Source of the DNA: Cystobacterineae bacterium
Lineage (GTDB): Bacteria; Myxococcota; Myxococcia; Myxococcales; Myxococcaceae
Reading direction: 5' to 3'
Assembly: GCA_009782175.1 (NCBI GenBank)
Contig: WRKR01000003.1
Location: 1 to 64,000 of the forward strand
Length of the DNA stretch: 64,000 nucleotides
The position numbers were made by a program, and so were the translations under genes. Shown here one piece after another: positions 57,902 to 64,000 of this stretch; the stretch's first letter is position 1; each line of letters begins with the position of its first letter. The notes beneath the pieces were generated by a model, which saw nothing but the letters and a program-made list of their open reading frames with translations, was not told where the DNA came from and made no database searches.

Positions 57902-58746
57902 GTTGCCATGCCCAGAAGTCCACTCATGGGGCTGGAAGCTGAGCCATAAGCGCGCATGGGGATGCGTCCGGCCAAAAAAGCTTCGCGCCCTGCTTCTACG
58001 GCCAGGCGCATGGCTTGGGCCATGCGCGTGGGGTGTTTGGCCTCAGCAATGGCCGTATTCATGAGGATGGCATCGCAACCCAACTCCATGGCGAAAGCCG
58101 CGTCTGAGGCCGTGCCCACGCCTGCGTCGACAATAATGGGGACTTTGGCGGCTTCAACAATAAGGCGTATATTGTTGGGGTTGCGTATACCCAGGCCTGA
58201 GCCAATGGGTGCAGCGAGTGGCATAACGGCCGCGCAGCCCACGTCTTCGAGTTTTTTGCAGGCGACAGGGTCGTCCGTCACATAGGGGAGGATGGTGAAG
58301 CCTTCTTTAACGAGGAGGCGGGCGGCCTTGAGGGTTTCTTCAATGTCCGGGAGGAGGGTTTTTTTATCGCCTATAACTTCGAGTTTAATCCATTGAGAGA
58401 GGCCCAATTCTGCGGCGAGGTGGCAGGTGCGGATGGCTTCATCTGCGCAATAACAGCCAGCGGTATTGGGAAGCAGTTGTATTTTGTTTCTGTCAATCCA
58501 ATGCAGCAAAGCGTTTTCGCCTGAGGCCTTTAAGTCCAAGCGGCGCACCGCCACGGTGACCATTTGGGTTTCTGAAAACTCATGGCAGAGCTGCATGGTT
58601 TTAAAATCAGCATATTTGCCTGTGCCCACCAGGAGGCGCGACTGGAAGACGCGCTCGGCGATGCGCAGGGGTTTGTTTATAATGGTTTCCGTCTCATCTA
58701 CAGGAAGCAACTCTCCCAAAAGGGCTATATCCATGTCCATATTCAT
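57898..58746 (-). CDS. thiG: Thiazole synthase ThiG
   Basis: ThiG makes the thiamine thiazole from deoxyxylulose phosphate, dehydroglycine and the ThiS thiocarboxylate. The 282 residues include the Schiff-base Lys 121 in [46 protein letters not shown] and [20 protein letters not shown] with the phosphate site. About 25 extra residues precede the usual start, with several Met codons to choose from (first, third, fifth). The ATG overlaps the thiS stop (ATGA). Confidence 0.94.
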
Positions 58747-58943
58747 CCTCCTCCGACGAAGGTGACAATTTCGAGTGTGTCCCCTTCGCTCAGCTGGGTT
58801 GTGGCGTGGTTTTGTTTTTTGATAACTTGACCATTTAATTCAACAGCAACAGGTTGTTTTGCAAGAGCGAGCTCTAGCAGCAAAAGGGCCAATGAGCTAT
58901 TTTCTGGCAGAGTCCTCTTTTCGCCGTTGACAACAATTTCCAT
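58743..58943 (-). CDS. thiS: Sulfur carrier protein ThiS
   Basis: A 66-residue ubiquitin-like sulfur carrier whose C-terminal Gly is adenylated by an E1-like enzyme and then thiocarboxylated. The protein runs from [20 protein letters not shown] to [12 protein letters not shown], ending in the needed GG. It leads the thiS-thiG-thiE operon. ThiF, the adenylating enzyme, is not in this operon; an E1-like gene lies about 4 kb away at 62936. Confidence 0.93.
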
Positions 58944-62890: not shown

Positions 62891-62935
62891 GTGGGTTGGG
62901 TTTATATGCTGGCTTTTGTTGAAAGTGGATGGCCT

Positions 62936-63598
62936 ATGAAGAAGAAGATTTCAGCCATGGTGGTGGGTGTGGGAGGCATAGGTTGTCCGGCCATACTCTC
63001 GTTGGCCCGCTCAGGTGTCAGCAAAATTTATATGGTGGATGATGATTATGTGGAAGCCTCCAATTTGCCCAGGCAACTTTGGCATTTGCCCGAGGATTTG
63101 GGCAAAGCCAAAGTGGACTCTGCCTATGAGAAGTTGAGCCCCCTTTTCCCCAAAGTTTCTTTTGAGCCATTGTTTTTAAGGGTGGATGAGCGGAATGCGG
63201 ACACCCTTTTTGCGGCCCAAGAGCTGATCCTCGACGGTACGGATTCTGCTGAGAGCAAATTGTTTTTTTCAGACGTGGCTGTGCGGCATGCACGCCTTTT
63301 GGTATCCGCCGGGGCAACGGGGTGGAAAGGGCAGCTGATGCGCATTGAGCCTGGAGGGCCCTGCCTGAGGTGTGCTTTTTCAGGGGATATGAAAGCGTGC
63401 GCCCCCCCCAGCCAGGTTGGCATATTGGGGCCCATGGCGGGGCTGCTGGGTTTTTGGGCAGCCGCCCTGGCGCAGGCTCCCTGCTCCTCTCAGGGCGCAG
63501 GGGCGCTATATTGGATAGATGCTCTGCGTTGGCGCACGGGGGTTTTGCACATAGAGAAAGACAAGCAATGTTGCTGCAATGAACATCCGCTTTTGTGA
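62936..63598 (+). CDS. ThiF/MoeB/HesA-family E1-like adenylyltransferase
   Basis: E1-like enzymes adenylate the C-terminal Gly of ThiS, MoaD or similar carriers. The 220 residues contain the nucleotide loop GVGGIG (11-16), DDDYVEASNLPRQ with the Arg finger-type residues, Asp 100 in ILDGTD, zinc Cys 143 and 146 (CLRC), a probable catalytic Cys 155 preceding QVGILGP, and a CCC cluster (212-214) that would complete the zinc site. The usual N-terminal helix beginning RYxRQ is missing, so the protein starts at the Rossmann fold. It might serve ThiS encoded at 58743, or a carrier outside the window. The ATG at 62936 lacks a strong ribosome site. Confidence 0.82.
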   Translation: MKKKISAMVVGVGGIGCPAILSLARSGVSKIYMVDDDYVEASNLPRQLWHLPEDLGKAKVDSAYEKLSPLFPKVSFEPLFLRVDERNADTLFAAQELILDGTDSAESKLFFSDVAVRHARLLVSAGATGWKGQLMRIEPGGPCLRCAFSGDMKACAPPSQVGILGPMAGLLGFWAAALAQAPCSSQGAGALYWIDALRWRTGVLHIEKDKQCCCNEHPLL

Positions 63599-63703
63599 GA
63601 GAGAGAAGGTTTTTTGCCCTGTTGTGGAGAGCAGAAGTTTTAGCAGGCGTTATGTGAGAGAAAGTTATTTGAATGGAGCGTGCTTTGAGCAGAAGGGAGC
63701 GCC

Positions 63704-64000
63704 ATGGATGAGCCTATGCGCTATTTGCGGCAACGTGTTTTGGAGGGTGTGGGCGAAGCGGGCCAGCAGCTTTTTTTCTCCACGGAAGTGGTGTGCGAAG
63801 GACAAAGCCCGGCTTTGCAGACGGCTGCGGCCTATATAGAGGCTGCGGGCTTTTGCCTCAACCGGCACGCCGTGCCTTTGCACCCCGGTTTTTGCCCTGT
63901 GGCATGGCAGGAGCCCAAGGGCGTTGAGCCCTGCAGCGCGCCCTTGCCTGCGTCGGCTGTGCGGCAGCGTGGTTTTTTGGGCCAGCTTCCATGCGCCTGT
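63704..64000 (+). CDS. Second E1-like protein with degenerate ATP loop (partial, runs off the window)
   Basis: The first 99 residues are visible. The start MRYLRQRVLEGVGEAGQQLF matches the N-terminal RYxRQxxLxxxGxxGQ segment of MoeB/ThiF, and VVCEGQSPALQTAAAYIEAA aligns with the ATP loop that normally reads VxGxGGxG, so the glycines are mostly lost. The acidic and Arg residues that bind ATP (DxDxVxxSNLxRQ) are also missing. It should not adenylate by itself. AAGGGAG precedes the ATG. It begins 105 bases after the intact E1-like gene, which lacks exactly this N-terminal helix; a heterodimer is possible but inferred. The C-terminus is not seen. Confidence 0.6.
   Translation, partial: MDEPMRYLRQRVLEGVGEAGQQLFFSTEVVCEGQSPALQTAAAYIEAAGFCLNRHAVPLHPGFCPVAWQEPKGVEPCSAPLPASAVRQRGFLGQLPCAC

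Follow-up and report, generated by a model that had tools for sequence, protein, structure and literature searches.

A predicted two-gene E1-like enzyme associated with a sulfur-carrier operon in Myxococcota

Introduction

In eukaryotic E1 enzymes an active half is paired with a dead one to give an asymmetric dimer, and MoeB and ThiF, the E1s that serve sulfur carriers in bacteria, form symmetric homodimers. In homodimeric MoeB and Uba4, and also in NAE, an arginine on the N-terminal helix of one subunit reaches across to complete the ATP site of the other. The mycobacterial cysteine pathway consists of CysO-CysM-Mec+ with MoeZ.

The ATP site of Uba4 takes Gly45, Arg77, Lys90 and Asp134 from one subunit and Arg18 from the second (PMC7527816). 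In NAE, Arg15 of the inactive APPBP1 is the sole ATP ligand outside UBA3, and the R15A substitution slows activation without abolishing conjugation (PMC6031683). In UBA1, Arg57 together with Arg515 holds the position of the gamma phosphate (PMC12355090). A bacterial E1 with both an inactive and an active adenylation domain is represented by BilD of the Bil system (PMC11354881). The type 4e operon, predicted by Iyer et al. (2006), combines genes for a ThiS/MoaD-like protein, JAB, an E1 without rhodanese, SirA/TusA, APS kinase and other sulfur genes (PMC1779556), and a link between CysO and MoeZ has been reported (PMC3227635).

Here we describe two adjacent genes, A and B, at the end of a 64,000-base stretch of DNA (the window), with which a 112,982-base contig in a 2.7 Mb genome begins. 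Based on comparative sequence analysis, A and B each probably supply one subunit of an asymmetric E1-like enzyme that has an arginine provided in trans and arose by duplication and complementary loss.

The putative catalytic half

Gene A has the following features; translation might alternatively begin at a GTG at 62891.

62936 to 63598, + strand: gene A, catalytic E1 half, 220 aa, ATG start; ThiF/MoeB adenylation domain without the N-terminal helix
62966 to 62983, + strand: GVGGIG nucleotide loop of A, residues 11-16; G11, G13, G14 and G16 invariant in 31 A proteins
63059 to 63076, + strand: SNLPRQ of A, residues 42-47 (R46 = MoeB R73); N43, R46 and Q47 invariant, R73 equivalent in 60/60
63233 to 63235, + strand: Asp100 of A (= MoeB D130); invariant, 60/60 A proteins
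63362 to 63373, + strand: CLRC zinc pair of A, Cys143 and Cys146, with C-terminal partners among Cys212-214; C143, C146, C212 and C214 invariant
63407 to 63409, + strand: Pro158 of A, occupying the site of the crossover cysteine conserved in E1s; 29/29 other aligned relatives have Cys here, both genomes of the genus Pro

An earlier note on this DNA described A as a protein of 220 residues with GVGGIG, SNLPRQ, Asp100 and the CLRC pair, all of which can be read from the sequence. The Pfam ThiF profile (PF00899) matches A at 147.8 bits (cut-off 28.1) over profile positions 20-199 of 238, leaving the N-terminal part unmatched, and the AlphaFold2 model (pLDDT 90.6, pTM 0.89) begins at beta-strand 1. 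As had been proposed, A starts directly at the Rossmann fold. The model aligns with E. coli ThiF from ThiF residue 21 onwards (Z 28.5, 214 residues, rmsd 2.0) and with MoeB from MoeB residue 24, and by fold it pairs with MoeB/ThiF, UBA3 and SAE2. A profile of the gene A family retrieves MoeB, ThiF and Uba4 first, and then the active halves UBA3 (4e-30) and SAE2 (1e-26). Based on PF00899, the GxGxxG loop and the equivalents of G41/D62/R73/K86/D130 (in 58-60 of 60 A proteins), we assign gene A as a ThiF/MoeB adenylation domain. It is not a canonical ThiF or MoeB, given that it falls below the NCBIfam equivalog cut-offs (TIGR02356, 133.5 of 275.25; TIGR02355, 97.7 of 376.55) and that the RYxRQ helix is absent.

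In E. coli MoeB numbering (MoeB sequence from the annotated MG1655 record), 60 A proteins retain G41 in 59 cases, D62 in 59, and N70, R73, K86 and D130 in all 60, and the zinc cysteines are kept. The crossover-loop cysteine (position of MoeB C187), which in the A proteins of relatives lies four residues ahead of the G in GVLG, is present in 58 of the 60; the exceptions are this genome and its sister, both with Pro. Cys155, which the earlier note listed among the features of A, is not this conserved cysteine: the corresponding position is Pro158, three residues downstream, and Cys155 is absent even in the sister genome.

The putative inactive half

Gene B follows on the same strand and crosses the edge of the window.

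63704 to 64264 (contig coordinates), + strand: gene B, pseudo-E1 half, 186 aa, ATG start; the window ends at 64000, after 99 aa
63719 to 63733, + strand: RYLRQ helix of B (R6 = MoeB R11; R9 = MoeB R14, predicted to be the one lent to the ATP site of the partner); R6 and R9 invariant, both arginines in 58/58 B proteins
63788 to 63817, + strand: degenerate ATP loop of B, VVCEGQSPAL; 0/58 B proteins with all five catalytic residues

The N-terminus of B (MDEPMRYLRQRVLEGVGEAGQ) opens with the RYxRQ helix and reads VVCEGQSPAL at the ATP loop, just as first noted. The last 264 bases, beyond the window edge, lead to the stop at contig position 64264 without entering an unrelated domain, and the model of the whole protein has an E1 fold. 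None of G41, D62, R73 and K86 is retained in 52 of the 58 B proteins. Because ATP-binding residues are missing, gene B is predicted not to be an active adenylating E1. The zinc cysteines are kept in 49 of the 58 and are missing in the window's B.

A single-sequence Pfam search with gene B gave no match, and the genome-wide Pfam ThiF scan also misses it. The B family profile, by comparison, matches ThiF (7e-20, positions 3-192 of 196), MoeB (5e-19), Uba4 (5e-13) and SAE1 (7e-5); its match to APPBP1 (0.4) is not significant. Together with the results for A, these profile searches bear out the relationship to ThiF and MoeB that had been suggested for both genes. An AlphaFold2 model built with an alignment of 28 sequences (pLDDT 84.8, pTM 0.83) begins with two helices and continues as a reduced Rossmann domain. 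The best ten Foldseek matches of this model are E. coli ThiF and MoeB (top ThiF, 5.8e-6), and VIA structure alignment gives SAE1 (Z 12.3, 170 aligned, rmsd 3.8), ThiF (Z 11.8, 171 aligned, rmsd 3.9) and APPBP1 (Z 11.7), which lie within Z 1 of one another, so that fold alone cannot separate inactive halves from ThiF. B therefore groups with the inactive halves through SAE1 by sequence, and by fold SAE1 and APPBP1 are tied with ThiF. Profile and model agree in indicating a ThiF fold over most of the length of B. Its origin appears to be displayed directly by less eroded B proteins of other families (RYARQLILPGVGEMGQERLRAARVKVYGAGPLAGPALIYLAESGVGAV in L073; RYARHILLQEVGGVGQEKILSSRIHVSGLGEVGCWAVTYLGLAGVGRL in L196), and the degree of decay of the dead half differs between families. 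Conservation and fold rule out B as a random ORF.

The RYxRQ helix motif was not found in frame upstream in any of 75 myxobacterial A proteins (75/75). Equivalents of both MoeB R11 and R14 are present in 58/58 B proteins and in 54/54 single E1s of other phyla; these single E1s hold the full set of residues. A 76th row (L079) was left out of the A count because it is a rhodanese-MoeB, and it was rejected as a natural A-B fusion for the same reason. Thus, the catalytic half lacks the arginine helix (0/75) and the inactive half carries it (58/58), the residue pattern expected of a heterodimeric E1. The suggestion that, like SAE1/UBA2, A and B pair a catalytic with a non-catalytic half of an E1 gains support from the comparative profiles and from the co-occurrence and adjacency described below. 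Since the arginine of APPBP1 is useful but dispensable in NAE, the conservation of R14 is by itself no proof of need.

From these observations we infer a physical dimer, the arginine in trans and the chemistry as follows. A would bind ATP and adenylate a ubiquitin-like sulfur carrier at its C-terminal Gly. As the second member of the E1 dimer, B, folded like A, would put the arginine of its RYxRQ helix into the ATP site of A, where this arginine would contact the gamma phosphate. Such a dimer would have one working site in place of two. Alternatively, A could be a homodimer without the arginine, and B a scaffold or adaptor that binds, instead of the dimer face of A, a different operon product such as the carrier or the JAB protease. 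B adjoins JAB, in a few genomes within the same frame (L065, L070), and the body of B shows little conservation, at a mean column identity of 37% in the 28-sequence alignment. However, conservation in B is highest precisely in the dimer-crossing RYxRQ..GQ helix, which A never has and in which R6, R9 and Q21 are invariant in the same alignment, and we consider the scaffold explanation unlikely. We also disfavour, as exceedingly improbable, the view that B is a decaying pseudogene without function. Its ATP site is lost, as are the zinc cysteines in the window's genus, but open B frames are kept in more than 100 genomes, the arginines are invariant and the fold is confident. Between the sister genomes dN/dS is 0.34/1.10 for B (about 0.3) and 0.23/1.21 for A, which indicates that both genes are under purifying selection. 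We thus retain the asymmetric A/B dimer as the preferred reading.

Operon context and distribution

The A/B pair heads an operon that continues just beyond the window. The stop of B overlaps the start region of a gene encoding a JAB metalloprotease (motif HSHPGGEAQLSPAD; Prok-JAB, 43.7 bits), and this is followed on the same strand by genes encoding an APS kinase (128.6 bits), LarE (TIGR00268, 245.7 bits; cut-off 150) and, further on, ClpX. In two relatives B and the JAB protease share one reading frame (L065 2799-4358; L070 6100-7236), a candidate natural B-JAB fusion. The APS kinase of the window's genus (contig C3 64788-65759; L004 9789-10760) has a tail of ~150 residues rich in Lys/Ala/Pro/Ser, like histone H1, and the APS kinase reading frames of most relatives are shorter.

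Across the Myxococcales the layout of the operon in relatives is E1-TusA-CysO-B-(CysM)-JAB-APS kinase-LarE. In most relatives two genes separate A from B; the product of one is TusA-like (ITREVCPMTYVRTKL...), and that of the other is a carrier of the MoaD/CysO kind with AGG at its C-terminus. Some relatives also have a CysM-like gene ahead of JAB. This order-wide arrangement points to a sulfur-carrier enzyme. By gene content, the window's operon appears to correspond in part to type 4e of Iyer et al., with an E1 without rhodanese, JAB and adenylylsulfate kinase; in the window's genus the A-B interval contains neither a ThiS/MoaD-like carrier nor a SirA/TusA gene. The link to thiamine drawn in the earlier note finds no support. 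ThiS/ThiG/ThiE are 4 kb off on the other strand, and the dedicated CysO-type carrier inside the operon of relatives argues against thiamine as the ancestral role of the pair, which we reject. A third E1, of the rhodanese-MoeB type, is available for ThiS/MoaD in this genome.

Besides A, the Pfam ThiF matches genome-wide are this rhodanese-MoeB (contig C24) and a TcdA type (C1). In the C24 protein (L005 5499-6650) the rhodanese domain precedes MoeB instead of trailing it; L005 6657-9062 encodes a protein of 801 residues in which a protein-kinase-like domain occurs twice, in nearly identical form. A could in principle partner the rhodanese-MoeB instead of B, since the C24 protein has its own N-terminal helix (RFERHIHLPEIGARGQ) and its relatives are widespread in the same genomes. 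However, it is also present in genomes without A, whereas B tracks A, and we regard this pairing as highly improbable.

According to a hand reading of the genome search tables, 46 of 60 genomes encode both A and B, 13 encode neither, and one, an 87% complete assembly, encodes B only. B adjoins A in every relative examined with enough sequence; the conserved adjacency that the earlier note proposed to look for in relatives is thus found across a bacterial order. A B-type match occurs in at least 112 genomes of the order (hand count), and named carriers of the pair include Myxococcus, Corallococcus, Pyxidicoccus and Archangium. Outside the order, one genome (G069) has an A-CysO-B-CysM-JAB operon. 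Some genomes of family f5 carry a further A/B pair that lies apart from the sulfur operon (G054:C1 3603063-3604420; L195), and G086 and G096 also have two B-type matches each.

Phylogenetic analysis places all A proteins in one clade and all B proteins in another (support 100/99 and 99/99). The A clade is nested among single E1s. B sits on a long branch with uncertain attachment, so the tree can neither place it nor settle whether it is the sister of A. Complete E1s beside similar sulfur genes are found in Methylomirabilota, Chloroflexi, Nitrospirae, Omnitrophota, Geobacter and Spirochaetes. Given these similar operons with one complete E1 in other phyla, the A/B pair looks like the product of duplication and then subfunctionalisation. 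The earlier note had held that a complete ThiF in place of the pair in relatives would count against it; such enzymes do occur, though only outside the group, and there we read them as the ancestral state. In Myxococcota, duplication of one complete E1, belonging to a sulfur-carrier cysteine operon, would have been followed by complementary loss. It is solid that B is E1-derived, has lost catalysis and has kept the dimer arginine helix, that A is the converse, and that both travel in a sulfur-carrier operon.

Candidate carriers in the window's genus

In the window's genus the operon is without TusA, CysO and CysM. A scan of the own genome found no CysO elsewhere, and the only ThiS/MoaD-family proteins it found were ThiS and a MoaD-MoaE fusion. 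A CysM-like enzyme is encoded on C6 and LarC on C37, and the single TusA domain elsewhere in the genome lies inside an 833-aa frame on C27. With the crossover cysteine of the E1 lost, and CysO, TusA and CysM gone from the operon, the enzyme of this genus probably only adenylates. Candidate present carriers are the MoaD domain of the MoaD-MoaE fusion and ThiS:

58743 to 58943, - strand: ThiS, weak candidate substrate; TIGR01683, 77 bits

The MoaD-MoaE fusion on contig C25 of this genome (G000; L103 5423-6109) occupies one frame with the MoaD Gly-Gly inside, and the same is seen in G016 (L109). A Deinococcus JAMM protease cleaves a MoaD-MoaE fusion (PMC8832034), so by analogy the fusion may be a reasonable partner of the operon's JAB. 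We give about even weight to the broader proposal that the two-gene E1 of Myxococcota evolved independently of eukaryotes and that, in the window's genus, the carrier, the sulfur donor gene and the crossover cysteine were lost and the enzyme was retargeted to another carrier.

Comparison with known systems

The operon type and the fold are already known, and so are fused active/inactive bacterial E1s (BilD). A literature search, with most subscription journals outside its coverage, turned up no previous account of a bacterial E1 encoded by two genes in a sulfur-carrier pathway. The operon of relatives shares E1, TusA, carrier, JAB and APS kinase with Iyer type 4e. That type has a single E1 with no split mentioned, whereas the myxobacterial operon has a split E1 and LarE; the window's genus differs further in that the carrier and TusA are missing from its operon. 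Like the mycobacterial CysO-CysM-Mec+ system, several relatives have a carrier, a cysteine synthase and JAB beside the E1. Mycobacterial MoeZ is one polypeptide with rhodanese, whereas here the E1 is split and CysM is missing from the window's operon.

Among solved structures, E. coli MoeB and ThiF come closest to A and to B alike in sequence-profile comparison. They are homodimers of identical, complete subunits with two active sites; in A/B the functions would be split over two genes. BilD, unlike A/B, is a single fused polypeptide with a Cys domain and belongs to a conjugation pathway. SAE1-SAE2 and APPBP1-UBA3 (NAE1-UBA3), the split E1s of the human SUMO and NEDD8 systems, resemble A/B in having one catalytic and one non-catalytic ThiF-fold subunit, and their N-terminal arginine comes from the non-catalytic subunit, as is predicted for B. 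Unlike them, A/B belongs to a sulfur-carrier operon, and the extras of canonical eukaryotic E1s, the catalytic Cys domain and the ubiquitin-fold domain (UFD), are absent from A (220 aa) and B (186 aa). As A is nested among bacterial single E1s, the split looks independent of the eukaryotic heterodimeric E1s. Myxobacteria thus seem to repeat the eukaryotic step to asymmetry with the simplest E1 and with no conjugation machinery in the operon. This makes the origin of E1 asymmetry experimentally accessible: both proteins are small, the type of carrier is known, and a single arginine is predicted to be critical.
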